Of a stretch of 64,000 nt of DNA, positions 2,595 to 41,608 are shown in pieces (the first letter of the stretch is position 1; every line of letters starts with the position of its first letter). The notes under the pieces were generated by a model, which was given only the letters and a program-made list of their open reading frames with translations, was not told the DNA's origin and did not search any database. The stretch comes from Anaerolineae bacterium (GTDB lineage Bacteria > Chloroflexota > Anaerolineae > Anaerolineales > Villigracilaceae): contig QEXW01000111.1 of NCBI GenBank assembly GCA_003130845.1, positions 1-64,000 on the forward strand, given 5' to 3'. The position numbers and the translations under genes were made by a program.

Positions 2595-2981
2595 ATGATG
2601 TTCAACGATGAAAACCTTGGCACGATTTTATATGTAGAAGATGACCCCAACAACCGGACATTGATTCGCAGAATCCTGGGGGCAGAAGGGTACACCGTGC
2701 ACGAAGCAGCCAATGCCAGCATTGCGCTGGAAAAACTGAAAACCCTCAAACCCGATTTAATTCTGATGGACATCAACATGCCCGAAGTGGATGGATACAC
2801 CTTAACAGCCCAAATTCGTGCCATACCAGAAATGAGCAACGTGCCGATTGTTGCCCTCACAGCCAATGTCATGAAAGGAGACCGGGAAAGGTCTCTCCAA
2901 GCAGGCTGTGATGGTTACATTCAAAAACCAATTGACATTGACACGATTGCGACCCAGATTCAACGATTTATGAAGAGATAA
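2595..2981 (+). CDS. single-domain response regulator (CheY-like receiver)
   Basis: A 128-aa stand-alone receiver (REC) domain with no output domain. It has the acidic pair in 'YVEDD', the phospho-acceptor Asp59 in 'LMDINMP', Thr89 in 'ALTAN' and Lys111 in 'IQKP', so all phosphorylation residues are present. It should act as a phosphate shuttle or protein-binding switch in the cytoplasm. GGAG at 2582-2585 lies nine bases before the ATG. It is the first gene of the sensory run and sits five bases ahead of a second receiver gene. The distant hybrid kinase in the same run is the natural phosphodonor; this is inferred from context. Confidence 0.9.
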   Translation: MMFNDENLGTILYVEDDPNNRTLIRRILGAEGYTVHEAANASIALEKLKTLKPDLILMDINMPEVDGYTLTAQIRAIPEMSNVPIVALTANVMKGDRERSLQAGCDGYIQKPIDIDTIATQIQRFMKR

Positions 2982-2986
2982 ATCCG

Positions 2987-3454
2987 ATGAGCACAGATAA
3001 CACTCCTCCTACCAACCCCCTCAAAGAAGCCAATCGCAAACCGGGCATTTCAAAAGATACCACCGTACTCGTGGTAGAAGATAACGTGTCAAACTTCGTA
3101 TTGATTGCCCGTTTGCTGGGCTTTATGGGAATTCACTGCGAATGGAAAACTTCCGGCTACGAAGTCGTAGAGTATGCTGATACCTTGCCTCGACTAGACT
3201 TGATTTTGATGGACATTCGCCTGCCTTACGAAGATGGCTACGGCGCCATGAAAAAAATCCGCCAATCGGAGCGCTTGAAATCGGTGCCGATTATCGCCGT
3301 CACTGCAGAGGCCAGCCAAGAGCAAATGAACAAAGCCCGCGCAGCCGGCTTTAATGGTTTCCTAGGCAAACCGCTCGATCCAGACCGTTTCCCCGACCAG
3401 ATACGTAGGATTTTGAATGGAGAGCCCGTCTGGGAAATCCCTTACGAAGAGTAG
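2987..3454 (+). CDS. single-domain response regulator
   Basis: A 155-aa protein with a hydrophilic N-terminal tail of about 24 residues, then one REC domain. It has 'VVEDN', phospho-acceptor Asp76 in 'LMDIRLP', Thr106 in 'AVTAE' and Lys128 in 'GKP'. No DNA-binding or enzymatic output domain follows, only a short acidic tail. It is co-transcribed with the preceding receiver (5-base gap). Two adjacent, diverged receivers without outputs suggest two separate phosphate acceptors or sinks for the same kinase. Confidence 0.9.
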   Translation: MSTDNTPPTNPLKEANRKPGISKDTTVLVVEDNVSNFVLIARLLGFMGIHCEWKTSGYEVVEYADTLPRLDLILMDIRLPYEDGYGAMKKIRQSERLKSVPIIAVTAEASQEQMNKARAAGFNGFLGKPLDPDRFPDQIRRILNGEPVWEIPYEE

Positions 3455-9375: not shown

Positions 9376-12138
9376 ATGTTGCAAAAATTTTTTGAACTCC
9401 CCCTTGATAAGCCAGAACTATCCGCAGAAAAACGCAGCCTGTATCAATTGCTTTCTGCCGGCATCCCAGCCATTGTAACATTCCAGCCGCTTATCGGCCT
9501 AGCTATGCTGACAATTGCTGGGTTAACCCTAGCAGGCTACCTCGATACCCCAGAGGACATCTATCTGCTATTCATTGTGGCCAGCATCAACATTCTCAAC
9601 GGCCTGCTACATCTGCCGACCTTTAGCCTGCTGCGGCGCAACCGCTTAGGCCTTGTCGTTCTGCTGTTGGTGTTATGCAACGGTGTTTTTTCTGCTGCGC
9701 AAATCTTGCTTTGGCAAGGCGTGATCTGGTTTCCACTGAGTTTAATAGTTTCGGTTATCGCTGTTTTTCTGGCTGCGCCCGGCCTAACGCGGACACAAAA
9801 AATCTTTATTTTGCTGATAGGCATTCTCTTAAGCAGCGCCGTTATCGTTATAGATAGACAAATTAACTATCCCCGCCTGAGGATGGAAAACCTGAGTCAC
9901 TTTTTGGCCTTGCTCATCTATGGCCTGTTGACTCTTGCTATGGTCTCCATTGGCGTGTCCAATGGATTAATCAACTTCAAAACCATTTCAAGGCGGATGA
10001 TTTCAAATTTCTCCGCCTTGACGCTTACCACCGTTTTAGTTTTCATCACGATCGGCACGTTCACAAATTATCTCGATAGCCGTAAAAGAGCGTTTGAACA
10101 ACTAGAAACCATCTCCAATCTAAAAGCCTCCCAAATAGAACTCATCCTAGAAGAAATTCACGAGCAGGTATCGCAACCGCTTGAAGATACAGCCCTGTTA
10201 AGACTGGCGCAATCTATCTTAAACAGCGACCCAGAAAACGCAATTACAAAAATTGACCTTGAACTGTTTCGTTCATATCTATTTCGCTTGCAAAGACGAC
10301 CTGATGAAGAGTATTTTCTGATTGATGCCACTGGAAAAGTGATTTTATCCACCAACCCCAACATACAAGGGTTATACATCTCATCATTCACCTTGCTCGA
10401 AAAAGCCAAACAAGGACACGCATTTTCTATCGAGAAAGATTTCCCTGGCACGCCTGTGCAGTATTCCCTGTTTGCCATCCAGCCCATCACACAGGCAGAG
10501 CGATTTCTCGGGATGCTAGCCTTGCGAACGACGTTTAAGACCCTAAATGAGATTGCACAAATTGCGCCAACCGCACAACAAACACTCGAAACCTACCTGG
10601 TCAGCCGGATAGAAGGGATTGACACCCCAATCACCCAAACTCGTCAATTTGCCACACAAATTGAGAGCCTGCCGGTGCAGCAAGCCTTTGACCGATTGCT
10701 AACCGGTAATCAAGGCGAATATTTCAACTACGCTAACCGCGAGGTGTTTGGGCATTCTGTCTGGATTCCTGAGCTGCAATCGGTGCTAATTTCCGAAATA
10801 GAACAAGATGAAGCCTTAGCCGGCCTAATCAATTCCATTCCCATCTATCTTTCGATTGGCTTGTTGATGATACTCGTAGCTTTTACAACGGTGTATAGCA
10901 CTTCGCAAGCCATTAGCAGACCGATTCAAGATTTTGCGCAAAAAGCAGCCGCACTGGCAGGGGGTCAACTTTCTATACGCATTCATTCGGCCCGGCGAGA
11001 CGAGCTGGGCGCATTGGCAGAAAGTTTTAACAAAATGGCCAATGAACTAGAAGTGTTGGTAAGAACGTTGGAATCCAGAGTAAATGAGCGCACAAAAGAC
11101 CTGCAAAAACAAGCCAACTATTTGCGTATCGCTGCTGAAGTGGCACGCGATGCCACCACAGCCCAAGACTTGGAAGAATTACTGAACCGCGCTGCCCAAC
11201 TCATTTTGGACCGCTTCAACTTCTATCACACCGGCATCTTTTTAATAGACCCAGAGCGAGAATATGCCATCCTACGGGCCTCACCCACCGAGGCCGGGCG
11301 TAAAATGCTGGAACGGGGCCACCGCTTAAAGATCGGACAGGTTGGCCTGGTAGGATACGTTGCCGCGACCGGTACACCGCGCATTGCACTCGATACCGGG
11401 CAAGATACAGCATACTTCAAAAACCCCTTGCTACCGAACACTCGCTCAGAGGCAGCCATTCCGCTCAAACTAGGGGACACCGTGCTTGGCGTGTTGGATG
11501 TGCAAAGCACACAACCCGAAGCCTTCACCCAAGATGACATCGCCACACTACAAGTCATGGCCGACCAACTTGCGCTTGCGATTCAGCGTGTTGAACTGGT
11601 CAACGACCTGCAACGCAACCTGGCTGAGCTCGAGAACACCTATAAAACATTTACCAGCGAAAGTTGGCAACAATTTAGCCTGCAACAAGATTTCAAGCGC
11701 GGTTACGTTTTCGACGGATTTAAACTCGTTCCTCTACAATCATTGCCAGAGAAAGCACAATCTGCGCTCAAAAGAGGACGCACCACCATCTTGCCACCAG
11801 AACGCGAAAACGAAGGGGCTACTGTTCTTACTCCGCTTAAGCTGCGAGAACAAGTGTTGGGCATTTTAGCGTTGCAATTTGACACCCCCACCGTTGACCC
11901 AGATACCGTCGGTCTGCTGGAAGAAACCGCTGCGCGCTTGGCGATTGCGATGGAAAACGCTCGTCTATACACAGAAACACAAAACTTGGTGCAGCGCGAA
12001 CGTGCAGTGAGTGAAATCTCTAACCAAATTGCCGCATCATTTAACGTTGAAAACATTTTGCGCGCAGCAGTCATAGAAATTGGTAAGCGAATGCCCGATG
12101 CGGAAGTGATTGTGCAGTTAGAAACCGACCAGGATTGA
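9376..12138 (+). CDS. membrane sensor: 6 TM, extracellular Cache-like domain, HAMP, GAF modules
   Basis: A 920-aa protein. It has about six TM helices at 27-195, then a TM at 212-232. An extracytoplasmic region of some 250 residues (235-485) looks like a double Cache ligand-binding domain, with 'EEYFLIDATGKVILSTNP'. A closing TM (488-508) is followed by HAMP (510-560) and a coiled coil. Then come a full GAF (580-742, 'FKNPLLPNTRSE'), a degenerate GAF (755-865) and a half GAF (870-920). Cache domains usually bind small metabolites such as amino or organic acids. There is no kinase or methyl-accepting domain. The four long sensors of this run (here and at 12142, 15919, 22391) share this layout and are paralogues diverged mainly in the Cache region. 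Confidence 0.84.
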   Translation: MLQKFFELPLDKPELSAEKRSLYQLLSAGIPAIVTFQPLIGLAMLTIAGLTLAGYLDTPEDIYLLFIVASINILNGLLHLPTFSLLRRNRLGLVVLLLVLCNGVFSAAQILLWQGVIWFPLSLIVSVIAVFLAAPGLTRTQKIFILLIGILLSSAVIVIDRQINYPRLRMENLSHFLALLIYGLLTLAMVSIGVSNGLINFKTISRRMISNFSALTLTTVLVFITIGTFTNYLDSRKRAFEQLETISNLKASQIELILEEIHEQVSQPLEDTALLRLAQSILNSDPENAITKIDLELFRSYLFRLQRRPDEEYFLIDATGKVILSTNPNIQGLYISSFTLLEKAKQGHAFSIEKDFPGTPVQYSLFAIQPITQAERFLGMLALRTTFKTLNEIAQIAPTAQQTLETYLVSRIEGIDTPITQTRQFATQIESLPVQQAFDRLLTGNQGEYFNYANREVFGHSVWIPELQSVLISEIEQDEALAGLINSIPIYLSIGLLMILVAFTTVYSTSQAISRPIQDFAQKAAALAGGQLSIRIHSARRDELGALAESFNKMANELEVLVRTLESRVNERTKDLQKQANYLRIAAEVARDATTAQDLEELLNRAAQLILDRFNFYHTGIFLIDPEREYAILRASPTEAGRKMLERGHRLKIGQVGLVGYVAATGTPRIALDTGQDTAYFKNPLLPNTRSEAAIPLKLGDTVLGVLDVQSTQPEAFTQDDIATLQVMADQLALAIQRVELVNDLQRNLAELENTYKTFTSESWQQFSLQQDFKRGYVFDGFKLVPLQSLPEKAQSALKRGRTTILPPERENEGATVLTPLKLREQVLGILALQFDTPTVDPDTVGLLEETAARLAIAMENARLYTETQNLVQRERAVSEISNQIAASFNVENILRAAVIEIGKRMPDAEVIVQLETDQD

Positions 12139-12141
12139 GCA

Positions 12142-14907
12142 ATGTCCACGCCAGAAAACGCCACTCCTCTCTCAACCCATATGACACACCTAAGACAGGT
12201 GAATGTTCAGGTTATCACTCTCATCAACATGCTCGGTGCCTGGCTGCTGTTGATTGGTTATGTGGCAGGCTACGCCATTACGCGCGAGGCGCGCTTGCTC
12301 AACTTGATAGCCATGCAAGCCATCTATGGGTTTGCCATCACCATCGCCTGGGGGATGCGAAAACGAGGTCAGGGGCAGGGTGCAATCTGGCTTCTCTTAC
12401 TTTCTAATTTTGCAGCCAGTATTTTCCTGGTCCATGAAATCGAATGGGTTGCCATTTTCTTTGGCATCTTGTTGCCGATTATCTCTTCAATGGTCGCCTG
12501 GCAAACCCTGCCAAAGCGCAGTGCACTTGGGGCAATTTTGGTGAGCATTCTGAGCGGCATACTCATTGTAACAACCGATTTGAATTTTGGCGCCCCCAAC
12601 CGCTTAAGCGGAGGCTTTTTCCTGACATCCTTGCTCATCGTTGCCGGTGGTACCGCTATTTTTATCCTGATTTTGAATGGCTTGCGTGGAACAGAATTCA
12701 AGAGCATTAGCACACAATTACGGGTTGCTTTTCTGCTTACATCCATCTTACCCGTACTCATTGTGGCCATTTTTCAGACTCTCATCCTAGCCAATGTTCT
12801 CACCACCCAAGCCACTAACACCTTGCTACAAAACTCGAATGCATTTACAGAAACACTCGAGTCACAATTATTTAGTATTATCAACTCGGTTGAAGAAGAT
12901 GCCAGCAATCCCGCCATTCGAAATTACCTACAAAAGCCAGATGGAAACACGGCATTCCTTACTCTGTTAGCATCACGCTACCCCGACTTGATTTCGTATG
13001 GCCTATTAAATAAAGACGGTTTTCTGGTAGTAGATAACCGGGGCAATACACGCGGTAACGAAAGAGATACGACCTATTTCCAAAACACCATCTCTACCCG
13101 CATCACCTACATTTCAGACGTGGTTTTGGATGAAAACACACAACGTGGTGTGTTCTTCGTAAGCAAGGCCGTCCTGGATGAGCAAGGCAATCTGCTGGGT
13201 GTGTTACGCATAAAAATATCTGCAGAGCGACTACAAACAATCGCCGAAGAAAGTGCAGCGCAGTTCGGCCCGGGGTTTTCAGTCATAATTCTGGACGATG
13301 CGAATATCATTCTGGCGCATAGCGCCGACCCGGACCTGCGCACAAAAACACTTTCCGTGCCCAACCGCAACGTCTTAAACGCCTTACAACAAGCCGGTCG
13401 TCTACCATTGGCAGGCCAACTGAATGCGGAGCTAGATAGCCTAGAGAAAGCGCTGGCGAAGGCCACCCTAAAAACCGTGTTTACGGGCTTTGTTCTGCCT
13501 GGTGAAACCACGCGAAATTACATCACGGTGACTTCCATTGCATACAAACCTTGGAAAGCGCTCATAGCGCAGCAAACAGCCGTTTTTCTCGCGCCAGCCA
13601 TTAACCAAACCCTGTCCACCTCTTTGATTATCCTTATCTTATTGGCAGCAGTATATTTCGGTGCCAATCTCACCGCCAATTTGTTGGTTGAACCGATTCA
13701 GACCCTGACCGCGGCTGCGCAAGAACTCGGCAAAGGGAAACTAAACGCACCGCTGGTGCTACCACGTAAAGACGAACTCGGCACGCTGGCAAACGTGCTG
13801 GAAAACACCCGCCAACAAATCTATGAGCTGTTAGAGACGTTGGAACAACGGGTAGAACAACGCACATCAGAACTGATGCAAGCCAATGAGAGAAACGAGC
13901 GCCGCGCCCAGCAACTGACGCTTGCTTCGATGATAGCCCATGCTGTCGCCAGTGTACAAGATGTGAATGAGTTGCTTCAACAAATTACCCAACAAATCAG
14001 CGAAGCATTCGGTTACTACCACGTTGGTATATTCCTGCTCGATGAAAGCGGTGAATACGCTGTTTTGCGCGCTGCCAACAGCCAAGGTGGTCAGGCCATG
14101 TTGGCGCGCGGCCATCGGTTGCGCGTGGGACGACAGGGAATTGTCGGCACAGTGACCAACACCGGGCGGTACCGCATTGCTCTCGATGTTGGTGAGGACG
14201 CCGTCTTTTTCAATAACCCCGACCTGCCAAACACCCGTTCGGAAGCAGCCTTACCCCTCATTGTAGGTGAGACCATCATCGGTGCGCTCGATGTACAAAG
14301 CACCGAACCAAACGCGTTCAGTCAAGACGATATTGTCGTCTTGAGTCTGCTAAGCGACCAAATTAGTGTTGCTATCCAAAACGCTCGTCTCTTTGAACAA
14401 ATCCGCAAAGATTTATCAGAAATGCAACGAATCTACGTGGAAACCAGTCAGCTCGGCTGGCGAGCGCTCGTTAGAGAATCAAGTACCAGCGGTTATCGGT
14501 ACACCAAAGGAAGTATTGAACCTCTGCGCAAGATAGCGGAAGATGAAGAGAAGGCAGCCACTCCAACGCTCGAAGTGCCTATCGTTGTGCGTGGGGAAAA
14601 GCTAGGCGCCCTAAAACTCCGGCGACCCGTCCCCTGGACAGAAGCAGAAACCCGTATGTACCAGGCCATTGCAGAGCGCATGTCGTTTGCACTCGATAAT
14701 GCTCGTCTATATTCTGAAGCCCGCCGGCGTGCCAACCTAGAGCGCGTCATTGCAGATACCGCGACCAAAATCAGCTCCTCGGTGCGTGTGGAAACCATCT
14801 TGCGGATTGCAGCAGAAGAAATTAGTAATTTGCTAGATGGCTCTGAAGTTCTTGTCCAACTTCAACCAGAAGCGATAACCCGCTCAGAAAGCAAAATAAC
14901 AGAATAA
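12142..14907 (+). CDS. membrane sensor: 6 TM, Cache, HAMP, GAF modules
   Basis: A 921-aa paralogue of the preceding protein, starting three bases after its stop. TM helices lie at about 25-180 and 193-218. The Cache-like region (220-490) contains 'LISYGLLNKDGFLVVDNRG' and 'DTTYFQNTI', close to the double-Cache consensus. TM 493-515 is followed by HAMP (516-568), a coiled coil, GAF (590-750, 'YYHVGIFLLD', 'FNNPDLPNTRSE'), a degenerate GAF starting near 'LGWRALV' with 'SGYRYTKG', and a half GAF ending 'VLVQLQPE'. It has no output domain. The divergent Cache sequence implies a different ligand from its neighbour. Confidence 0.84.
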   Translation: MSTPENATPLSTHMTHLRQVNVQVITLINMLGAWLLLIGYVAGYAITREARLLNLIAMQAIYGFAITIAWGMRKRGQGQGAIWLLLLSNFAASIFLVHEIEWVAIFFGILLPIISSMVAWQTLPKRSALGAILVSILSGILIVTTDLNFGAPNRLSGGFFLTSLLIVAGGTAIFILILNGLRGTEFKSISTQLRVAFLLTSILPVLIVAIFQTLILANVLTTQATNTLLQNSNAFTETLESQLFSIINSVEEDASNPAIRNYLQKPDGNTAFLTLLASRYPDLISYGLLNKDGFLVVDNRGNTRGNERDTTYFQNTISTRITYISDVVLDENTQRGVFFVSKAVLDEQGNLLGVLRIKISAERLQTIAEESAAQFGPGFSVIILDDANIILAHSADPDLRTKTLSVPNRNVLNALQQAGRLPLAGQLNAELDSLEKALAKATLKTVFTGFVLPGETTRNYITVTSIAYKPWKALIAQQTAVFLAPAINQTLSTSLIILILLAAVYFGANLTANLLVEPIQTLTAAAQELGKGKLNAPLVLPRKDELGTLANVLENTRQQIYELLETLEQRVEQRTSELMQANERNERRAQQLTLASMIAHAVASVQDVNELLQQITQQISEAFGYYHVGIFLLDESGEYAVLRAANSQGGQAMLARGHRLRVGRQGIVGTVTNTGRYRIALDVGEDAVFFNNPDLPNTRSEAALPLIVGETIIGALDVQSTEPNAFSQDDIVVLSLLSDQISVAIQNARLFEQIRKDLSEMQRIYVETSQLGWRALVRESSTSGYRYTKGSIEPLRKIAEDEEKAATPTLEVPIVVRGEKLGALKLRRPVPWTEAETRMYQAIAERMSFALDNARLYSEARRRANLERVIADTATKISSSVRVETILRIAAEEISNLLDGSEVLVQLQPEAITRSESKITE

Positions 14908-14912
14908 TTTTT

Positions 14913-15899
14913 ATGAAACGCTTTTGTGCCATCTCACCATGCAAAATCATTCCCGTGTTGTGGGTCTTCCTGTTGCTAACAGGCTGTGGTCTGCTCTCTG
15001 AAGCGGAAAGCAAACCCAACGCTCCCTTGCGAGTGGAATTCGCCGAGTGGTGGGGAGACTACACGCTGATTATTGCTGAAAAGAACGGCCTGTTCGAGAA
15101 ATATGGCGTTGCAGTAACACCCGTCTTCTATTCGAACTTTTCGCGTGCCTTACCCGATTTAGCCGCCGGACAGATTGACGGCGGGTTGTTTGCCATCGGT
15201 GATGCTATCAGCGTATCCAAGTACACAGACCTCAAAGTAGTAGCCGTGTACGATAACGGGAGTTATAACACCATCGTCTCGGTGCCAGACATCAAACGCA
15301 TCCGAGACTTGACAGGTAAACGCGTTGGCGTGCAGGTCGGCACCAGTTATGAACTGCTTATCAATGAAATGCTGGCTTCCGCAGGAATGAACATGTCTGA
15401 CATCATCTTGGTTAACATTAACCCAGAGGATGTACCTGATAACTTAGGAAAAACGATTGATGCTGGGTTTGTCTACGAACCATACACATCCATCGCCATC
15501 GCCAAAGGAAATTCCCTGCTCATCAAAAGCCAAGATTTCGTTGGGCTTTACCCCGATGTGATTGTTTTCCGGGCCGATGTGGTTAATAAACGCAGCGAAG
15601 ACATCCGCGCGTTTCTAAAAGCCTGGTTTGAGGCTGTAGAATTTCGCCGACGAAACCCACAAGAGAGTTTGCAAATCATTGCTAACCACTTAGGAAAACC
15701 AACAAGCGAAATCAGCATAGATACCTCCCTGGAAATTTTCAGCATCGAAGATAACTACGATATCTTTCAGGCTCAACCTGCCCGAAGACGGTCCATTTAC
15801 CAAACTGCCCGTCTAAACGCCGATTTTTTGGTGCGGATTGGCGTATTACCTGCGCGTCCTAACCTGAACCTCTTGCTCTCGCCAGAGTTCTTGCCTTAA
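14913..15899 (+). CDS. orphan ABC-type substrate-binding lipoprotein (NMT1/SsuA-like)
   Basis: A 328-aa lipoprotein with signal peptide and lipobox 'LLTGC' (Cys25). The mature part has a periplasmic-binding-protein fold of the NMT1/thiamine-precursor/sulfonate/nitrate group: 'EWWGDYTLIIAEKNGLFEKYGV' with 'LPDLAAGQIDGGLFAIGDA' and 'LTGKRVGVQVGTSYELL'. Such proteins normally deliver pyrimidine precursors, sulfonates, nitrate or similar ligands to an ABC permease. No permease or ATPase gene is near. It sits between two membrane Cache sensors in the same run (5 and 19 bases from its neighbours), so it probably presents ligand to a sensor, as in TorT/TorS-type or LuxP/LuxQ-type pairs. The ligand is unknown. 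Confidence 0.85.
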   Translation: MKRFCAISPCKIIPVLWVFLLLTGCGLLSEAESKPNAPLRVEFAEWWGDYTLIIAEKNGLFEKYGVAVTPVFYSNFSRALPDLAAGQIDGGLFAIGDAISVSKYTDLKVVAVYDNGSYNTIVSVPDIKRIRDLTGKRVGVQVGTSYELLINEMLASAGMNMSDIILVNINPEDVPDNLGKTIDAGFVYEPYTSIAIAKGNSLLIKSQDFVGLYPDVIVFRADVVNKRSEDIRAFLKAWFEAVEFRRRNPQESLQIIANHLGKPTSEISIDTSLEIFSIEDNYDIFQAQPARRRSIYQTARLNADFLVRIGVLPARPNLNLLLSPEFLP

Positions 15900-15918: not shown

Positions 15919-18663
15919 TTGAGTATGATAACAGGCGAAACAAAACCCTTCTTTGATGAACAACAACAAGCCGCCCGGCGTGCCAGAAACACCTATCGCA
16001 TCGGACTGTGGAATGGCATTTTATTCACGCTGATTGCGATAGCCTCCACCATCTCCACCATCCAAACAGGGCTTTATGTCTTTGGCGGGATTGCGTTAGC
16101 CATCGTCGTTGCGGCTGTCAGTTTCGTGGCGGCTAACTTGGCACAAAAAGGCAAAGCACCCCTAGGCAGCGCCTTGCTGGTTGGGACGATTCTCGCCAGC
16201 TCGTTTACCCTGCCCATCATTGCCAAAGGACAAGGCATTGCACTGGCTTTTCTAATTGTCGTCATCGTCTCCAGCATTTCATACCTTACGCTAACCAGCC
16301 GGTGGACAATCTACGCCACGCTGGCGAGTATTCTCATTGGATTTCTCACAATTATCGCCGATTTTTTCCTACCAGATTTTGGTATCCCAAATGACCCACA
16401 ATTCACCTACGTCATCAGTGCCATTGCCGGCTCCATTTACCTACTAGCGCTTATCCGCCGCTTCAGAGATTTCTCACTGCGCGCCAAGATCATTGCATCG
16501 TTTCTGGCAATCACTCTCTTGCTCATTTTCGGATTAAGTGTTTACACAAACACGGTAACACGCGATATTCTCACCCAACAAGCGGAAAGCACGCTCAGCA
16601 CCTTGGCCATAGAAACCGGTCAAAGAATAGACCAGTTTATCCTCTCCCAATTCGACATCATCAAAATGGAAGCGCAACAACCCCTGTTGGCGCAATTCTT
16701 GCAGCAAAGTCTATTTTCCAGAAATGAAGAACTCGAATCGGCTGCGATTAAGACACTTCTGACCTTCGTCCGCAAAAACCCGGTGTTCATCCAATCCTAC
16801 GCCCTGCTAGATATGAGCGGAAAAGTGGTACTAAGCACCAACCCTGCGCAAATTGGGACAAGTGACGCACAAACCGAATATTTCCGCCTAGCAGTCCTAA
16901 AGCAAGAACCACAACTTTCGAGTATCGCAAACTTGCCTGATGAGCCGGTACTTTATTTTATTTCCCCTATTCGCGCCGAGAGCGGTTTGATTGTGGGCAT
17001 GTTGCGCGCTGAGTACAATGCTGTTATTTTGGAATACCTGGTTAACACGCCATCCGTTCAACGTGAATCTGGGCAGAGAACCATTCTCATAGAGAGCAGT
17101 ACCCTCATCAAACTCGCTGACACACAACAGTTCGATACAATATATCACCCTTTCCCAGAAATTAGCACCTTACTGCCAGACCTAAGCACCCCCACGACCC
17201 TGATGGCACCTGGCAAACAGAGAGGACAAGGTTTGTTTCTCGTCAGTCTACCGCTCAGCACCAACCCCTGGGTGGTGATTGCTTCGCAACCAGAAAACAC
17301 AATCTACGCCCAAGCCGATCGCCAGGCCCGCACACTTGTTTTATTCTCAATCGCACTGACAGCTTTCGCGCTGCTAGTTGCACTCCTTACAGCACAGTTC
17401 ATTTCGCGCCCAATTGCATCGTTGGTAGCAGTAGCTCAAAAAATCATTCTTGGTGATTTGCATGCCCGCTCTGACATCAACACTGACGATGAAGTCGGCA
17501 AGCTGGGGCGTGTGTTCAACCAAATGACAGCCCAACTGAGCCAAACGCTGGCCAGTTTGGAACAGCGCATTCAGGAGCGCACAGCACAATTGCAAGCAAC
17601 AAGTCAGCAGAGCGAACAACGTGCCCGGCAGCTTCAAAGTATTGCAGATATTTCTAAAATCATCACCAGAGAACAAAACCTTGAAAAACTACTCCCTTTG
17701 ATTGCAGAGACCGTCAGTGAACGCTTTGGTTATTACCATGTTGGCATCTTCCTGCTTGATGAAACACGGCGAACCGCGGTGCTACAAGCCTCCAACAGCC
17801 CAGGCGGACAAAAAATGCTGGCCAGTGGTCACAAACTATCGCTTGGTACAAGCAGTATTGTCGGATATGCTGCCTTAACCGGCAAACCACGTATTGCACT
17901 CGATGTAGGCGAAGATGCCGTTTTCTTCAACAACCCCCACCTGCCTGAAACCCGCTCCGAAATGGCTCTACCCTTGGTTGTGCGTAGCGTAGTGATTGGG
18001 GTTCTGGATATGCAAAGCAAACAAGCCAATGCCTTCACCCAAGAAGATATTGAAATTCTCTCCATTCTCGCCGACCAAGTTGCAATTGCGATCGAAAATG
18101 CCCGCCTTTTTGCACAAAATCAAGCTGCGCTCCAAGAGACCCAAGCCATTGTGCAATCCTTTGTGCGACAAGAATGGGCAGCGCTTACCAGCCGGCAAAC
18201 CACCATTGGCTACCTGCATACTAACCTAGGTGGACAATCTCTTACCTCTCCAATCCAACTCGAAGAGATTGAGCAAGCGCTTCGTAAAGGGAACATTATC
18301 AAAAAAGAGAGCAAAACGACACCAAACGCAAACCCTGTGCTTGTCGTACCTCTCAAAATCGGCGAACAATTGGTAGGTGCCATTCGTATTCAGGCGCCTA
18401 ACCCTCAGCATAGCTGGAGTACCGAAGAAATCAACTTGGTGCGTTCGATTGCAGACCGCGTAGGCCTAGCGCTGGATAACGCCCGTCTGGTAGCATCCAG
18501 TCAAAGACGTGCGGCTAAGGAACGCGCGATTGGCGAAATTTCAGCCAAGATTAGCGCTGCAACCGATATGGATGCCATCCTAAAAACTGCCGCCCAAGAA
18601 ATAGGCCGTGTACTCTCTGAAGCAGATGTAGTTATTCAGCTCAAACAATTTGAAGACGAGTAA
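15919..18663 (+). CDS. membrane sensor: 6 TM, Cache, HAMP, GAF modules
   Basis: A 914-aa member of the long sensor class. Helices at about 28-180 and a TM near 190-210 flank the start of a Cache-like domain (210-470) with 'IQSYALLDMSGKVVLSTNP' and 'TEYFRLAV'. TM 473-495, HAMP (497-548), coiled coil, GAF (575-735, 'FNNPHLPETRSE'), degenerate GAF with 'RQEWAALTSRQTTIGYLH', and half GAF ('AEADVVIQL' near the end in the form 'SEADVVIQL') follow. The start is uncertain: TTG at 15919 has GAG five bases upstream, while ATG two codons later (15925) is equally possible. It follows the binding-protein gene directly and is a candidate partner for it. Confidence 0.83.
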   Translation: MSMITGETKPFFDEQQQAARRARNTYRIGLWNGILFTLIAIASTISTIQTGLYVFGGIALAIVVAAVSFVAANLAQKGKAPLGSALLVGTILASSFTLPIIAKGQGIALAFLIVVIVSSISYLTLTSRWTIYATLASILIGFLTIIADFFLPDFGIPNDPQFTYVISAIAGSIYLLALIRRFRDFSLRAKIIASFLAITLLLIFGLSVYTNTVTRDILTQQAESTLSTLAIETGQRIDQFILSQFDIIKMEAQQPLLAQFLQQSLFSRNEELESAAIKTLLTFVRKNPVFIQSYALLDMSGKVVLSTNPAQIGTSDAQTEYFRLAVLKQEPQLSSIANLPDEPVLYFISPIRAESGLIVGMLRAEYNAVILEYLVNTPSVQRESGQRTILIESSTLIKLADTQQFDTIYHPFPEISTLLPDLSTPTTLMAPGKQRGQGLFLVSLPLSTNPWVVIASQPENTIYAQADRQARTLVLFSIALTAFALLVALLTAQFISRPIASLVAVAQKIILGDLHARSDINTDDEVGKLGRVFNQMTAQLSQTLASLEQRIQERTAQLQATSQQSEQRARQLQSIADISKIITREQNLEKLLPLIAETVSERFGYYHVGIFLLDETRRTAVLQASNSPGGQKMLASGHKLSLGTSSIVGYAALTGKPRIALDVGEDAVFFNNPHLPETRSEMALPLVVRSVVIGVLDMQSKQANAFTQEDIEILSILADQVAIAIENARLFAQNQAALQETQAIVQSFVRQEWAALTSRQTTIGYLHTNLGGQSLTSPIQLEEIEQALRKGNIIKKESKTTPNANPVLVVPLKIGEQLVGAIRIQAPNPQHSWSTEEINLVRSIADRVGLALDNARLVASSQRRAAKERAIGEISAKISAATDMDAILKTAAQEIGRVLSEADVVIQLKQFEDE

Positions 18664-18668
18664 GCAGC

Positions 18669-20624
18669 ATGGATACCTCGGCCATGGCTACCACTTCCCG
18701 TAAACTTTCACTGCGCACCATTTTTGCTATCAGCTTTTCAGCACTAGCCACCGTACTGGTTGCGATTGTGATAATTTCTCTCTACTTTAGCTTCAGCCAA
18801 CAAATCCGCCAAGATTTACGCAAGCGCTTGATGAACATTGCTGCAGTGGCGGCTTTGCAACAAAACGGTGACGAGCTGGTATTGATTTCTTCTGAAACCG
18901 ACCCGCTCTACCAAAAAGTACGCGAGCAGAATCAGCGAATTGTGGATATTGACCCGGATATTGCTTATGTTTACACCATGCGTAAAGACGAACAAGGGAT
19001 TTATTTCGTGGTAGATGTTGGTGGAGCAAACTACGCTGATACAGCATCATTTGGCGAGCGCTACCCGGATGCCAGCCCAACCCTGCGTCAAAATTTCGAC
19101 ACCCTCGAAACGGCAATCACCGACCAAGAAATTTATACTGATAGTTTCGGCTCCTTTCTGAGTGGCTACGCACCAATTCGTAACAGTCAAGGAGAAAAAG
19201 TAGGAGTGCTCGGTGTTGATTTGAAAGCCGAAATCGTGATTCAACAAGAGCGCGCTTTCATTTTCACATCTCTGGCAATATTTGCCATCGCCCTGGTGTT
19301 GATTGCCTTGTCCGGCATTCTCATTGGAAACCGAATTTCCAGCCCACTCAGAACACTGGCCTATTCAGCCAACCGAATTGCAAACGGCGACTTGACTCAT
19401 CAGGTTGAAATCAACACCGCAGCCGCAGAAATTGATCAGTTGGCAAAAAATTTCAATCAAATGTCTTTTTCCCTCAAAAATACAATAGAGATGCTGGAAA
19501 GCCGGGTAGCAGAACGAACCAGAGAACTACAGCAACGCACTATCGAGTTGGAAAGCAAATCACAAGAATCGGAACGACGCGTTAATCAGCTGCGTGCCAT
19601 TGCCGAAGTGGCGCGAGCCATTTCGTCCGTCCAAAGATTGCAAGACTTGCTACCCAGTGTGGCGACAGTGATTAGTCGTGAGTTTGGCTTCTATCATGTC
19701 GGTATCTTCTTAATAGACGATGCCAAAGAATATGCTGTCCTGGTTGCCAGCAATTCCGAGGGCGGCCAGCGCATGTTACAACGCAATCACAAACTCAAAA
19801 TTGGCGAGGTAGGCATTGTTGGTTTTGCCGCAGCCACCGGACAGGCACGCGTTGCGCTCGATACAGGAGCAGACGCCATATACTTCAACAACCCTGACCT
19901 GCCTAACACACGCTCCGAAATAGCGCTTCCGTTGCGCATGGGCAATCAAGTGATTGGTATTCTCGATGTGCAGAGTGACCAAACTGCCGCCTTCGACGAA
20001 GAAGACATCGAACTTCTTACGATTATGGCAGACCAAGTGAGCATTGCCATCCAAAACGCCCAACAATTCCAAGCAGCCCAAAAAGCAGCCGAAGAAGCAC
20101 AGGCCATTTACCGCCGTTACATTCAAAGTGAATGGCGAACCCTCGTGCGGGAAACCAAACGACTAGGTTACCGCTACTCCAGAGCAGGAGTTGGGCCACT
20201 GCGGGCGCCCGTTCAATCCCTGGAGGTCCAGCAGGCAACTGCCACCGGTAAAACCAGCGCATCAACACGAGAAAGCCGTTCGCAAATCGTCGTTCCCATC
20301 AAAATACGTGATGAAGTGATTGGCGTTTTACACATCGCATCCGACAGCGGCCATGCCTGGGACCAGGACGAAGTAGATATTGCGGAAGCAGTTGCCGAGC
20401 GTGTGGCACTCGCTGTAGAAAACATCCGCCTGCTCGAGTCTTCCCAAGCTCAAGCCTCGCGCGAACATACCATCAGTCAGGTCACAGCCCGCATCGGGGC
20501 TTCGGTCAACCTACAAAGTATCTTGAAAACAGCAGTGGAAGAGATTGGACGCATTATCCCTGGTTCTGAAGTGGTGATTCAGCTCGGTCAAAAAAGTGAA
20601 AAGCAACCAGGAGCTAGCGTATGA
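18669..20624 (+). CDS. membrane sensor: TM, Cache-like domain, TM, HAMP, GAF modules
   Basis: A 651-aa sensor with the classical two-TM layout. TM1 is at about 18-42 and an extracytoplasmic region at 45-190, with 'IDPDIAYVYTMRKDEQG' and 'GYAPIRNSQGEKVGVLGVD', typical of a Cache/PAS-like fold. TM2 is at 195-218, then HAMP (219-270), coiled coil, GAF (312-470), degenerate GAF with 'QSEWRTLVRETKRLGYRYS' (478-590) and half GAF (598-645). It lacks the N-terminal six-helix bundle of its long neighbours. There is no kinase or other output. An alternative start is ATG at 18684. The end overlaps the next gene by four bases (ATGA). Confidence 0.84.
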   Translation: MDTSAMATTSRKLSLRTIFAISFSALATVLVAIVIISLYFSFSQQIRQDLRKRLMNIAAVAALQQNGDELVLISSETDPLYQKVREQNQRIVDIDPDIAYVYTMRKDEQGIYFVVDVGGANYADTASFGERYPDASPTLRQNFDTLETAITDQEIYTDSFGSFLSGYAPIRNSQGEKVGVLGVDLKAEIVIQQERAFIFTSLAIFAIALVLIALSGILIGNRISSPLRTLAYSANRIANGDLTHQVEINTAAAEIDQLAKNFNQMSFSLKNTIEMLESRVAERTRELQQRTIELESKSQESERRVNQLRAIAEVARAISSVQRLQDLLPSVATVISREFGFYHVGIFLIDDAKEYAVLVASNSEGGQRMLQRNHKLKIGEVGIVGFAAATGQARVALDTGADAIYFNNPDLPNTRSEIALPLRMGNQVIGILDVQSDQTAAFDEEDIELLTIMADQVSIAIQNAQQFQAAQKAAEEAQAIYRRYIQSEWRTLVRETKRLGYRYSRAGVGPLRAPVQSLEVQQATATGKTSASTRESRSQIVVPIKIRDEVIGVLHIASDSGHAWDQDEVDIAEAVAERVALAVENIRLLESSQAQASREHTISQVTARIGASVNLQSILKTAVEEIGRIIPGSEVVIQLGQKSEKQPGASV

Positions 20625-22390: not shown

Positions 22391-25210
22391 ATGAACCGCT
22401 TGAAATCACTTTACCTTGCTTTATCAATCCCTACGCGCAGAATATTCTGGTTTATCGCCCTGGTGGCGGTATTGGTAGGTGGGTTTAGCCTTGCCTTATT
22501 CCAGTCGCTCTTACTCTCGGCAACTCTCCTGGACCTGATTGGAGTTTTGATACCTTATGTGTTAGCCTTCGTGGCAATCATCAGCGCCATCAGCATCCTA
22601 TACAACCGCGTCCAGTTTGGTGTGTGGCTGTTCTTCTTCAGTACGCTGATGGCGATGTTGGCTGTTCCGTTTGTTCAGGAAGGTGCAGCCTTCACCGCAG
22701 CGGTTTTTGTGGTGCTTGTCACAATTGTTGTTCCACTGCAATCCATCCAAGGACAAAAAAGCACGCTGATTGTAGTCAGTGGCATTCTTGTAGCTGGCTT
22801 AATTCTCGCCATAGACATCATCTGGCCTGGAGCACGTGCCAAAGTGGCACCGCGTGATATGCCTGTTATCCAAATCGGCACCATTCTTAGTGGAATAATC
22901 TTGCTCGCTTCGATTGGCCTACTATATCAGTCCTTCAACCTGCGCAACAAATTATTGGTCCTCAGCCTGGGGGCAAGTCTTACCTCAGTGATTGTCGTCT
23001 CAGCCGCAGCAACATACTATACGCAAGCTGCGCTTACTCAAAATGCCCGCGAAAAACTCCTAACGGCCGCCAGGCACACTGCTGACTCGATTGATGCCTA
23101 CTTAAGCTTCAACCTGGAACTCGTCAAAGCCGAGGCAACTTTGCCGGTCATTACGCGCTATCTCTCCGCGCAGGACGAGGTGCGAGGCTTGGCAGATGTA
23201 CAGACCACGCTACAAAACCTGGCAGCACGGGATAGCCAAAACATCCGTTCCTATGCACTCTTCGATAAAAATGCAAATATCGTCTGGGATACACGCACTA
23301 TTGGCCTGGCTATCGGACCACGCACAAACCAGAACCAAGAAGATTTCTTTCGCATTCCTTATTCCACTGGAAAACCATATATTAGCCCAGTGCGATTTTC
23401 TCCGGCCGGCACAGGACGCGTATTCTACATTAGCGCGCCGGTACAGAATCAGTTTACCAACGAAATTTTGGGAATTTTGGCAGTTGAAATTCGAGCGTCT
23501 GTACTGGAAGAGATTTTACGAGAACAAAACGAGGCCGCTGGGCAGTCCTCCTATGCCATTCTATTCGATGAATATAACATCATCCTTGCCGATCCGTTCA
23601 ACCCCAAGCGCGTTGCACGCTCGGCAACCGAGTTAGGAGAAGCACAAATTGCCTTTCTCAAAGCGCAAAAGCGGTTAGAAGAAAATACATACGCACCAGA
23701 AATTTCTCTTGGCATGACCTCTCTGGCGCGTGGACTAAGCAATATTAACATCACACCGTTTTTGGAAACTGGCGACCAGTCTTTCGGCGAATCGATGCAA
23801 GGCGCCGCTGTCTATACGTCTAAACAACCCTGGAAAGTGGCGTTCTTGCAGCCTACATCGGTTGCCCTGGCACCGGTTTTACAGCAAAGCCGCGCCATTA
23901 CTGCCGCTGCCTTGCTCACCAGTTTTCTGCTAGGGGCTGCCACACTGTTTATTTCGCGCACCATTACCACCCCCGTCGAACGACTAACCCGCGCGGCGGA
24001 GGAAATATCCAATGGGAATCTCAATGTTCGCGCCGAAGTGCGCTCACAAGACGAGCTTGGCACCCTGGCTGCTACGCTCAACGCCATGAATGACCAGCTG
24101 AAACAAACCTTAAGCAGTCTGGAAGCCACGATTGCCGAACGCACAGCCGACCTCGAACAACGCGGAGCAGAACTCCTGCAGCGCTCCACCGAGCTTGAGC
24201 TGACCAATCAGCGCTCGCAACGCCGCGCCGAGCAACTACTGGCCGTATCGGCCGTCTCGAACGCAATTGCTACCGTGCAAAACTTGGATGATCTGCTGCC
24301 CCTCATCACCCGTACCATCAGCGAAAAATTCGGCTTTTATCACGTTGGTATCTTTCTGAATGACGCTAGCAACCAATTTGCCATCTTACGTGCAGCAAAC
24401 AGCCCGGGCGGTCAACGTATGTTACAACGCGGACACCGCCTAAAAATCGGTGAAACTGGCATTGTTGGCAATGTCGTTGCCATGGGACGCCCACGCATTG
24501 CACTGGATACCGACACCGATACAGTGTTCTTCAACAACCCCGATTTGCCCGAAACACGCTCTGAAATGGCCTTGCCCTTGCGAGATGGCGCCCTCATCAT
24601 CGGTGCACTGGATGTACAAAGCACAGAACCGAACGCCTTCTCAGAAGAAGATGTAGAAATCCTGAGCGCACTCGCTGGCCAAGTCAGTACCGCCATCCGC
24701 AATGCGCGCCTCTTTGAAGCCATTCAACGCTCACAAGCCGAGCTTCAAACCATTCTGCAGCAAGACGCAAGAAGACAATGGCATACCGCTGTTCAAAGAA
24801 TGCAAAAAAGCGGCTACTACTACGATGGCGCCGTTCTTTTGCCATTAGAAAAACCACCTGCCAAAGAAGATGGAACACTGACTATTCCAATTACGGTGCG
24901 CGGGCAGGTCATTGGCAGCCTGGGCATTCGTCCACCTGCCGACCGTCCCCTGAGCGAACATGAGCTCGATATTATTAAGACAGTCAGTGAACGGCTGGCC
25001 ATTGCGGCAGAAAACGCCCGCCTGCTGGAAGATTCGCAAAAACGCGCCGTCAAAGAGCAGATGATTGGCGAAATCTCCGCCAAAATTGGCGCATCCATCA
25101 ACTTGGAAAACATTTTCCAAACTGCAGTCGAAGAATTGGGGCAGGCGTTAAGCGGTTCGCAGGTCTCCATCCGCCTGAAGAGCGACTCAAAAACAGGAAA
25201 AGGCCTATGA
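22391..25210 (+). CDS. membrane sensor: 6 TM, Cache, HAMP, GAF modules
   Basis: At 939 aa this is the longest sensor. TM helices lie at about 18-180 and 195-215. A Cache-like domain (217-500) has 'IRSYALFDKNANIVWDTR', 'EDFFRIPYSTGKPYISPV' and 'RVFYISAPV', a strong double-Cache pattern. TM 503-523, HAMP (524-575), coiled coil, GAF (615-775, 'FNNPDLPETRSE'), a shorter degenerate GAF ('RRQWHTAVQRMQKSGYYYD') and a half GAF (890-935) follow. No output domain is present. An AGGA motif precedes the ATG, and the end overlaps the next start by four bases. Confidence 0.84.
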   Translation: MNRLKSLYLALSIPTRRIFWFIALVAVLVGGFSLALFQSLLLSATLLDLIGVLIPYVLAFVAIISAISILYNRVQFGVWLFFFSTLMAMLAVPFVQEGAAFTAAVFVVLVTIVVPLQSIQGQKSTLIVVSGILVAGLILAIDIIWPGARAKVAPRDMPVIQIGTILSGIILLASIGLLYQSFNLRNKLLVLSLGASLTSVIVVSAAATYYTQAALTQNAREKLLTAARHTADSIDAYLSFNLELVKAEATLPVITRYLSAQDEVRGLADVQTTLQNLAARDSQNIRSYALFDKNANIVWDTRTIGLAIGPRTNQNQEDFFRIPYSTGKPYISPVRFSPAGTGRVFYISAPVQNQFTNEILGILAVEIRASVLEEILREQNEAAGQSSYAILFDEYNIILADPFNPKRVARSATELGEAQIAFLKAQKRLEENTYAPEISLGMTSLARGLSNINITPFLETGDQSFGESMQGAAVYTSKQPWKVAFLQPTSVALAPVLQQSRAITAAALLTSFLLGAATLFISRTITTPVERLTRAAEEISNGNLNVRAEVRSQDELGTLAATLNAMNDQLKQTLSSLEATIAERTADLEQRGAELLQRSTELELTNQRSQRRAEQLLAVSAVSNAIATVQNLDDLLPLITRTISEKFGFYHVGIFLNDASNQFAILRAANSPGGQRMLQRGHRLKIGETGIVGNVVAMGRPRIALDTDTDTVFFNNPDLPETRSEMALPLRDGALIIGALDVQSTEPNAFSEEDVEILSALAGQVSTAIRNARLFEAIQRSQAELQTILQQDARRQWHTAVQRMQKSGYYYDGAVLLPLEKPPAKEDGTLTIPITVRGQVIGSLGIRPPADRPLSEHELDIIKTVSERLAIAAENARLLEDSQKRAVKEQMIGEISAKIGASINLENIFQTAVEELGQALSGSQVSIRLKSDSKTGKGL

Positions 25211-26984: not shown

Positions 26985-27773
26985 ATGGTTTATGTTATCG
27001 CCATCTCAAATGAAAAAGGCGGAGTGGCAAAAACCACCACGACATACTCGCTGGGCGCTTCGCTGGCAGAAACAAACCGCAAGGTTCTATTGATTGACCT
27101 GGACCCGCAAGGCAACCTGAGTCTGGCCAATGGCATTGAACCCGCGAAGGCAATAAACACAAGCCATGATGTTCTCATGAACGGATTAAACATCCGCGAA
27201 GCGATTGCCAAAACCAGCACCCCCAGCATGGATATTGTCCCTGCCAGCCCGGCACTGATAGAGGTCGAACAAAATCTGCCCATGCGCAGCAATTACGCAT
27301 TCACGCTCAACAACGCGCTGCGGCAGCAACCCCTGGAGTACGACTATATCTTCCTGGATTGCCCACCTTCTATGGGTGCTATTACCTACAACGCCCTGAC
27401 CGCCGCCGAGCTGCTGATTATCCCTACCCAAGCAGAGTATTTCTCTGCCTATGCACTGCGCGATATGATGACGCTCATTCGTCGCGTGCGCAGAGATTCT
27501 AACCCACGTCTGGCTTACCGCATTCTCATCACCCTGCTGGACCAGCGAAACCGCACGCACAAAGTCATCCGCGAACAGTTGGAACAAACCTTTGGCAGCG
27601 GTTTATTCCAAACCGTTATCGAAATAGATACACGCTTGCGCGAAAGCCCAATTATTGGTTTACCCATTACCCAGTACCGCCCCACCAGCCGCGGCTCACA
27701 GCAATATCGCGTTCTGGCCCAGGAGTTAATTGATTATGTCCAGCAACAAAAAGATTCGCAATCGGCTCAATAA
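26985..27773 (+). CDS. ParA/Soj-family ATPase
   Basis: A 262-aa cytoplasmic P-loop ATPase of the ParA/MinD superfamily. It has the deviant Walker A 'KGGVAKTT' with its signature lysine (about 11-18), switch region 'LIDLDPQGNLS' (35-45) and Walker B 'YIFLDCPPSMG'. The length fits chromosomal Soj or orphan ParA proteins; no ParB gene is adjacent. A strong TAGGAGG precedes the ATG. Placed between sensors and kinase, it is unlikely to segregate DNA. By analogy with ParA relatives that position chemoreceptor arrays (PpfA, ParC), it may place or distribute the sensor-kinase complex. That role is inferred. Confidence 0.88.
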   Translation: MVYVIAISNEKGGVAKTTTTYSLGASLAETNRKVLLIDLDPQGNLSLANGIEPAKAINTSHDVLMNGLNIREAIAKTSTPSMDIVPASPALIEVEQNLPMRSNYAFTLNNALRQQPLEYDYIFLDCPPSMGAITYNALTAAELLIIPTQAEYFSAYALRDMMTLIRRVRRDSNPRLAYRILITLLDQRNRTHKVIREQLEQTFGSGLFQTVIEIDTRLRESPIIGLPITQYRPTSRGSQQYRVLAQELIDYVQQQKDSQSAQ

Positions 27774-30700
27774 ACTCTTTACTGACATCGAAACAGCCGA
27801 AGGACAAGCAACCGGCGCCCCCAAGCCGGTTCGCCAGCCTGCGTTTGAATCCCCAATCAAAGCACCAACGCAGCGAACAGTTTCCACTCCAACGGCCGTA
27901 ACGGTGAATGCACGGGTATCTGCGCGAAGCGATGCCTCGGTTTTTGCCTTGCCCTTTCAGGTGGCTTCTGAATGGAATGTGCTGGAATTAGAGGCAGACC
28001 CCTCCTACGAATGGGACGAAACCGAACAAAACCTGGTGCGCCAAGTAGCAGACCAATTGGGTCTTGCACTACAAAACGCACGGCTCTTCCAACAAACCGA
28101 AGCCCAAAACGCAGAACTGGCCGTACTGAACGAGATGGCACGCGAAATTTCCTCGCTGCTTTCAGTGCAGGAAGTGGCCCAGGCACTTTACAAATACGCC
28201 GGTCGGCTCATGGATGTTTCAGACTTTTTTGTTGGCATTTACCACCCCGAAACCGATGAAATTTCCTTTCCGGCCATTTACTTTGATGGTGTGCCAGCCG
28301 GCATCGAACGAACAACGCTCGAAAATGGTATGACCGCGCGGGTCATTCATGACCGTCAGCCGCTCTTGTTTCCTGACCGTGTGAAAGAGCGCGCCGAAGC
28401 GCTGGGCATAGAAATCTTACTAATAGGTGATGATGTCATTCCGCAATGCTGGCTGGGCGTGCCGATGGTGCTAGGTGAGCAAGTTTTAGGCGCCATCGTC
28501 GTGCAAAGCACCAAAGCCCCCCACCTTTACACCGAGCGTCATAAAAACCTGCTGGTGGCCATGGCCAGCCAAGTTGCCATCGCCATCCAAAATGCCCGGC
28601 TATTTGATGAAACCCAAAAACGCGCCGCCGACCTGGCCGCGCTGAACGAAATTGTGCGTGTGGCTTCCGAGGAAATCGAAGTTGATAAAATCATCGCAGC
28701 CGTTTACGAAAAAACATCCGAACTCTTGCCGATGGATGCCTTCATCATGGCCTTGTATTCCAACGATATGATTGACTACCGCCTGGTCATAGATGAAGGC
28801 CAGCGCTTCGAACTGGCACCCTCCCGCCTGGGCAACAACACCATCAGCGAAGTGCTACGGGAGAAAAAGCCCCGCTTGATCCTGCGCACACGCGAAGAAG
28901 TACAAGCACTCGAATCGAAAAACGTTGGACTTGGCACCAAAAAGATTTCTGCCTCTCTCATCTACGTCCCCCTGCTAAAAGGCAACAACATTCTAGGGGT
29001 CATTTCCGTTCAAAGTTACCGCTACCATGCCTATACACCCAACGATTTGGCTTTGGTAGAAAACATTGCCGGGCAGCTCGCCAATCTCATCCAAAATGCC
29101 TTTCTCTATGCCAACCAGCAAAAAACCCTGCAAGACCTGCAACTCATCAACCGGCTGACTTCCCTGGTCAGCAGCTCGCTCGAAATTCAAGCTAGCCTGC
29201 AAAAAATTGCCGAAGAATTGCAAGCCACTTTCAAAATTGGGCACGTAGGGATTGCGTTGCTCGACCAGAACGGCACCAGCCTAACGCTCACTGCCGATGC
29301 TCCCCTCCCCCCCGATGGCAAGGGCGATATTGGCTTGACCATCCCCGTTACATCCAGCCCGGCAACCCTGCAGGTGTTAGAAACGAAAAAGGCCCTTTTC
29401 ATTTATGACGTGCTCAACAACCCATTAACGGCCAACATTAAACACGTCCTGGCAGCACGCGGCACCAAGAACATCCTCTTGCTTCCCCTGCTATCGGGAA
29501 ACGAGGTGGTTGGCACCGTCGGGTTCGACACCTTTGACTTGGAGCGCACCTTCACCGATGACGAAATCCAACTCGCCGAAACCATCTTGTACCAAGTCGC
29601 CACATCCATTCGCAACGCTCAACTGTTTACACAAACCCAACAATCCGAAGAGCGCCTGCGCCGACAAAACGAATACTTAGCAACAGCGACACAAGTCGCC
29701 CGCCTAATCACCTCCACCCTCGACATGGACATCTTGTTCAGCCGTGCGGTAGACCTGATTCGCACACGCTTTGGCTATTATTTTGTCGGTCTATTTATTG
29801 TGGATGACAATAGCTACAATGCTACCTTGCGTGAAGGAACCGGTGAAGCAGGGGAACAACTCAAACAAAGACAATATTCCATCCCCGTTGGCTCTAAATC
29901 GGTGATTGGCTCTGTCACCGGCACAGGCACCACGCTCATTATCAACAACACCGCTCTCGACCCGCTTTACCGTCCCAATCCGCTCTTACCACAAACGCGC
30001 TCTCAGGTCGGCATTCCGCTCAAAATCGGCGCACGCGTCATCGGCGCGCTCGATATTCACTCCGACGAAATTAACACCTTCCATCCAGAAGAAATCGCCG
30101 TGCTAGAGACCCTGGCCGATCAAATTTCTGTCGCCGTTGATAACGCTCGCTCTTACCAGACGGTCCAGAAATCCATGGAGGAAATGAAACAACTGGATGT
30201 CATCAAAAGCCAGTTTTTGGCGAATATGTCGCATGAACTGCGCACGCCCCTCAACTCCATTATCGGCTTTTCACGCGTCATTCTCAAAGGAATTGATGGC
30301 CCCATTACCGAGCAGCAACAACAAGACCTGCTGGCAATTTACAACTCGGGGCAACACTTGCTCGGCCTGATTAACAACATCCTCGACCTATCGAAAATCG
30401 AAGCCGGCAAGATGGAACTAACCCTGGAAGAGTTGAACGTTGCCGATGCCATCGCCAGCGTCATCTCCACCTCGGCCGGCCTGGTGCGCGACAAGCCCAT
30501 CAAGCTCATCCAAAACGTAGAAAGCGGCTTGCCAACCGTACGTGCCGACCCCATGCGTCTGCGCCAAGTTTTACTCAACCTGGTCTCTAACGCTGTCAAA
30601 TTTACCGAGGAAGGCAGCATCACCGTCAGCGCTAGCTTGCACACCCCATCAACCGGTATTCCTGAAGTCATGATAAGCGTAACGGACACCGGCCCTGGCA

Positions 30701-41607: not shown

Positions 41608-41608
41608 G

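Follow-up and report, generated by a model that had tools for sequence, protein, structure and literature searches.

TorT-TorS, LuxP-LuxQ and AioX-AioS are binding-protein-activated sensors, in which a separate extracytoplasmic solute-binding protein (SBP) is encoded beside a membrane sensor. A binding protein of the NMT1/NrtA type has also been turned to regulation in the NasS-NasT system, where the cytoplasmic NasS acts on an RNA-binding antiterminator. About 10 binding-protein-activated sensor kinases have been characterised according to PMC9602780, which also describes the BctC-BctE pair; NspS-MbaA is described as having the same arrangement, and in these systems the SBP is thought to act on the sensor ectodomain. 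Gene adjacency can mislead, and PMC11113362 describes nearby sbp and kinase genes of P. aeruginosa whose interaction was not detectable; neighbouring sbp and kinase genes are thus not always functionally linked, which counts against a docking proposal such as the one made below. The literature searched yielded no report of a pairing between an NMT1-type SBP and a Cache sensor.

Here, we describe an NMT1/SsuA-fold lipoprotein encoded within an array of sensor genes of an Anaerolineae bacterium, in a 64,000-nucleotide stretch of DNA that was analysed as a whole (hereafter, the window). The lipoprotein appears to have lost its transporter and is probably the detachable ligand-binding 'nose' of the membrane sensor encoded directly downstream. 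It resembles the known systems in being a separate extracytoplasmic SBP encoded beside a membrane sensor, but the SBP is of the NMT1/SsuA type, the sensor ectodomain is a dCache domain, the output that goes with the same pair varies between kinase, GGDEF, SpoIIE and GAF only, and the partner sensor of the window array has no kinase of its own. The direct support consists of the gene, its predicted fold and lipobox, the lack of a fitting transporter, a conserved SBP-to-sensor gene order, and a separate phylogenetic branch.

A lipoprotein gene in a run of sensor genes

The lipoprotein gene lies among 16 successive plus-strand genes spanning 2595 to 33369 with gaps of -44 to 48 nt (Table 1), and is 5 nt from the preceding and 19 nt from the following gene. 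The run encodes a pair of receivers, one triple-GAF protein, nine membrane GAF proteins that have no kinase domain, the lipoprotein, a ParA, a GAF-kinase-receiver hybrid and a PALP-receiver fusion. Four of the nine membrane GAF proteins have a Pfam dCache match, and the membrane nature of those with neither HAMP nor dCache is a reading of the sequence. The nine kinase-less GAF sensors have one hybrid kinase and ParA in common (5747-31674), and similar arrays are present in other Anaerolineales genomes; at one further locus (L043) a 71% identical copy of the PALP-receiver fusion lies behind the hybrid kinase.

Table 1. Coordinates of the lipoprotein gene and of array features in the window.
Feature	Coordinates	Strand	Remarks
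Two stand-alone response-regulator receivers	2595..3454	+	Head of run
dCache-HAMP-GAF sensor	9376..12138	+	Domain search
Upstream dCache-HAMP-GAF sensor	12142..14907	+	Position as lipoprotein neighbour not conserved
NMT1/SsuA-fold solute-binding lipoprotein	14913..15899	+	328 aa, ATG start, lipobox LTGC at residues 22-25
Proposed partner sensor	15919..18663	+	914 aa; multi-TM, dCache, HAMP, two GAF; no kinase domain
Partner ectodomain	16477..17403	+	Residues 187-495; predicted dCache fold
HAMP-GAF sensor	18669..20624	+	Domain search
dCache-HAMP-GAF sensor	22391..25210	+	Domain search
ParA-type ATPase	26985..27773	+	Domain search
GAF-HisKA-HATPase-response regulator hybrid	27730..31674	+	Sole histidine kinase found in array; presumed output
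PALP (pyridoxal-phosphate) enzyme-response-regulator receiver fusion	31684-33369	+	End of run

The product matches Pfam NMT1 (PF09084; E 2.4e-23, 83.6 bits against a cut-off of 20.5) and NMT1_2 (E 1e-18), and its structural model (pLDDT 92.7) has the two-lobed SBP fold, so that profile score and model together place it in the NMT1/THI5-like family. Its top NCBIfam match is SsuA_fam (TIGR01728), at 144.5 bits below the curated cut-off of 163.5. The lipobox closes a signal region, and Cys25 is kept in 11 of 11 array proteins; it is therefore unlike NasS, which is cytoplasmic and of a type without an export signal, both in this respect and in lying beside a membrane sensor. These features, together with the domains of its neighbours, bear out the earlier note's description of an orphan NMT1/SsuA-type lipoprotein between Cache sensors beginning at 12142 and 15919.

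The 15919 sensor scores 41.0 bits for dCache_1, slightly below the 45-bit cut-off, and we count it as a dCache sensor because its ectodomain model (pLDDT 88.9) matches dCache structures, for example PctA and DctB. The ectodomains of this sensor and of its L056 counterpart are without about 35 alignment columns found in most other partners.

Binding-protein and sensor genes in relatives

A named-genome scan found 126 relatives, of which the best 80 loci were kept; its queries were peptide patterns drawn from array proteins, and the set is therefore biased towards the lipoprotein's subfamily. In 72 of these best 80 loci the SBP gene, or the last of a tandem, lies directly before a membrane-sensor gene, a count that includes two sensor genes that look broken (L101, L105), and the gaps are mostly -4, 9 or about 25 nt. 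Three loci (L079, L080, L082) have a single gene for a PF04199 'cyclase' (a hydrolase) between SBP and sensor, at L134 the gene after the SBP encodes a two-TM protein whose 319 aa leave no room for an output domain, at L126 a PF04199 gene follows the SBP and no sensor was seen at the locus, and three loci (L077, L106, L114) end too early to show the downstream gene. A Pfam scan of 83 downstream proteins (50 in set A3, including four from further loci and the window's own, and 33 in set A6) identified HAMP in 78, dCache_1 in 72, GAF in 32, HisKA in 27, GGDEF in 19 and SpoIIE in three, and the outputs vary accordingly between kinase, GGDEF, SpoIIE and GAF only. The loci are spread over about nine phyla, archaea among them (Chloroflexota, Cyanobacteriota, Myxococcota, Pseudomonadota, Omnitrophota, Planctomycetota, Nitrospirota, Riflebacteria and Nitrososphaerota). 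An SBP gene conserved beside the gene of an ectodomain-bearing sensor, as in binding-protein-activated membrane sensors, is thus a property of this family.

Protein searches gave a similar division. Among 101 related genomes, that of the window included, 62 match the lipoprotein at E<=1e-3, and all eleven places with at least 39% identity (the window included) are within GAF-sensor gene runs. A plain protein search of 400 genomes of the phylum, free of the motif bias and sharing some places with the first, returned 20 matches at E<=1e-25: the 13 with at least 129 bits all adjoin signalling genes (for L158 and L159 the neighbour recognised is an upstream kinase only), and all seven at or below 118.3 bits adjoin SsuB/SsuC. 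In six genomes chosen for known pairs, nine matches scoring about 153 bits or higher belong to SBP-sensor pairs or tandems, and of six matches at or below 113 bits two lie by SsuB/SsuC and two by a kinase.

There are several variations on this arrangement. Two to four tandem SBP genes precede a single dCache sensor at L086 (7883-12008), L091, L115 and L117, perhaps providing several ligands for one receptor. The PF04199 gene directly follows the SBP at L079 (11004-11792), L080 (10910-11773), L082 (9760-10551) and L126 (2106-2918); a lipobox-like LTAC/LAAC motif is present in three of their four products, and the usual metal motif, HxGTHxD, reads N for D. Such a product could make, remove or bind the SBP ligand. 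Natural SBP-sensor fusions were also sought, and the five long-frame regions inspected all adjoin SsuB/SsuC, with no fusion among them.

The gene order points to the downstream 15919 sensor as the most likely partner, rather than the upstream 12142 sensor: an ortholog of 15919 directly follows the binding-protein gene in most related arrays. The earlier proposal of an orphan SBP serving membrane sensors is therefore well supported at its core, by the conserved pairing of the genes, by phylogeny and by the absence of a transporter that fits, but the evidence favours 15919, and the upstream neighbour (12142 in the window) does not keep its position. It is rather unlikely that the lipoprotein serves several array sensors and not chiefly this one. 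Four array proteins have a dCache match, and in one relative an additional SBP precedes a dCache sensor of 769 aa, the kin of which in other arrays are without an SBP; against this, the directly downstream gene in arrays is mostly of one sensor lineage. In a small comparison of seven loci, in which one control domain is truncated, SBP distances moreover track those of the partner ectodomain (r 0.69, p 0.03), whereas they do not track those of another dCache (r 0.13, p 0.38).

In an ectodomain tree from which two very long branches were omitted, 37 of 43 partners group with three of the 19 remaining array dCaches in a single clade (support 92/92); the six partners outside it are L067 (a second pair), L079, L080, L081, L082 and L083. 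Mirror-tree comparisons gave mixed results. With 17 loci, cyclase-bearing ones included, the partial correlation of SBP with ectodomain given GAF is 0.71 and the reverse is 0.01, but with 19 arrays without cyclase-bearing loci the values are 0.23 (p 0.07) for ectodomain given GAF and 0.34 (p 0.02) for GAF given ectodomain; leaving out the window and L056 as well gives 0.56 and 0.34. This support for an SBP-ectodomain link is weak and not robust, and we give it little weight.

Transporter genes and the branch of sensor-linked binding proteins

The statement that no permease or ATPase lies near the lipoprotein gene holds: a check of the whole window detected no ABC ATPase, as none of the stop-to-stop frames combines a Walker A motif with an ABC signature. 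The sole ABC permeases found in the window (BPD_transp_1; 40672-42487 and 47575-48510, minus strand) lie near SBP_bac_1 and glycosidase genes, and are part of a sugar locus more than 24 kb away.

The wider genome has five PF09084 matches, namely the window and four others: C47 with SsuC and SsuB, C151 with SsuB, C114 with SsuC (no SsuB seen in 17 kb), and C125, where an NMT1-type SBP precedes a dCache-HAMP-HisKA-HATPase kinase and forms a second SBP-sensor pair (L046, 7683-10544). An SsuC query matched six places in the same genome, including a solitary permease at C61, two places at C16, and C130. Permeases common to several SBPs are known in general, and the lipoprotein might by that token be an ordinary importer subunit served by a permease-ATPase from another locus, with chance or co-regulation accounting for its position among the sensors; the solitary SsuC-type permease at C61 and the SsuB/SsuC-bearing loci are what this account has to draw on. 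The C61 permease, however, shares 57-68% identity with ten permeases and 24-33% with the remaining four compared. For nine of the ten the SBP was compared as well, and these SBPs share 54-63% identity with the C151 protein; we therefore assign the C61 permease to C151. That importer is apparently split, with SBP and ATPase at C151 (L055, 9609-11765) and the matching lone permease at C61 (L142, 2354-3103). The C16 and C130 matches are weak, and each adjoins its own ATPases. No permease fitting the lipoprotein remains among the SsuC matches of its own genome, and a matching permease-ATPase pair, which the earlier note had named as grounds for abandoning its idea, has no candidate there; the cognate permease and ATPase of an ABC importer binding protein were thus found neither near the gene in the window nor among the SsuC matches of this genome.

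The SBP phylogeny also speaks against an importer role. Among 90 sensor-linked and 20 transporter-linked rows, two label changes are required, compared to 18.7 in shuffles; five rows whose context is missing or has no sensor (L077, L106, both of L114, and L126) were omitted, and the result is the same when they are counted as sensor-linked. Sensor-linked SBPs are a branch apart from SsuB/SsuC-linked homologs, with 89 rows forming one side of a branch with support of 90 (not starred); the exception, L128_608, is a sensor-linked long branch that groups with transporter-linked rows. As the sensor pairing is moreover common to many phyla, we regard an importer role as quite improbable.

Candidate ligand and proposed receptor

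The structures nearest to the lipoprotein model are TauA, Thi5 and SsuA, with TauA (6ssy) at VIA Z 28.1, rmsd 3.0, 282 aligned positions and 18% identity, and SsuA (2x26) at VIA Z 26.7, rmsd 3.0, 278 aligned and 22% identity. Because these three are close in Z, the model would give the ligand at class level only. The lipoprotein has its fold in common with the TauA/SsuA alkanesulfonate-binding proteins, but is unlike them in its TIGR01728 score, in having no permease or ATPase, and apparently at a pocket position. PMC6906117 lists Gln30, Glu106, Trp176 and Asp205 as ligand contacts of TauA, with Gln30 sulfonate-binding and Asp205 on the amine side. Matching residues were read by hand from a profile alignment. 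Gln30 falls on Trp46 (W in 41 and F in six of 47 family proteins) when the HMM alignment is extended three residues by hand. Asp215 occupies the position of Asp205, where 45 of 47 proteins have D; Tyr188 occupies that of Trp176, where 43 of 47 have W and the aromatic is kept; and Asn119 occupies that of Glu106, where D is found in 38 of 47. These correspondences hint, at low confidence, at a ligand with an amine more than at a classic sulfonate. The list of thiamine precursors, sulfonates and nitrate offered previously is thus not supported as written, since the sulfonate-binding Gln of TauA falls on Trp46; thiamine, its precursors, nitrate and bicarbonate may remain candidates. A candidate docking residue, judged from its distribution, is Arg227: 46 of 47 family proteins have R at this position, and all five nearby transporter-linked proteins have N or D.

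That the lipoprotein is an accessory or structural protein or a relict, binding the sensor without sensing a ligand, is suggested by Asn119 in place of the family's usual Asp at a likely pocket position, but is very improbable given that the frame is intact, that the protein is 72% identical to its ortholog in a same-genus genome, and that positions 188 (aromatic) and 215 are retained.

We consider it likely that the lipoprotein and the 15919 sensor make up a two-protein receptor that signals to the hybrid kinase, the lipoprotein binding the ligand and docking on the dCache domain of the sensor. The lipoprotein would be lipid-anchored outside the cytoplasmic membrane, with the site for a small solute lying between the lobes, and one state of the protein would dock on the sensor ectodomain, the change being relayed via HAMP to the sensor's own GAF domains. 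Since this sensor has no kinase, it presumably acts on the hybrid kinase of the array, a step suggested by gene order alone. More tentatively, and with some doubt, the subfamily could be a dedicated transporter-free adapter, in which an NMT1-type SBP and a dCache-HAMP sensor remain paired in bacteria as well as archaea, whereas kinase, diguanylate cyclase and phosphatase replace one another as the output. In Anaerolineales this adapter would feed a membrane array of GAF receptors that are without kinases and have in common a single hybrid kinase together with a ParA, the latter possibly positioning the array.

Binding-protein-activated sensors are already known, and the NMT1-dCache pairing is apparently more widespread than the literature searched describes. 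Its conservation over about nine phyla with interchangeable output provides a clean set for locating the docking surface and the ligand, importer-type labels on such SBP genes could be corrected, and cultured relatives, such as Nostoc, make the SBP-sensor pairing testable.
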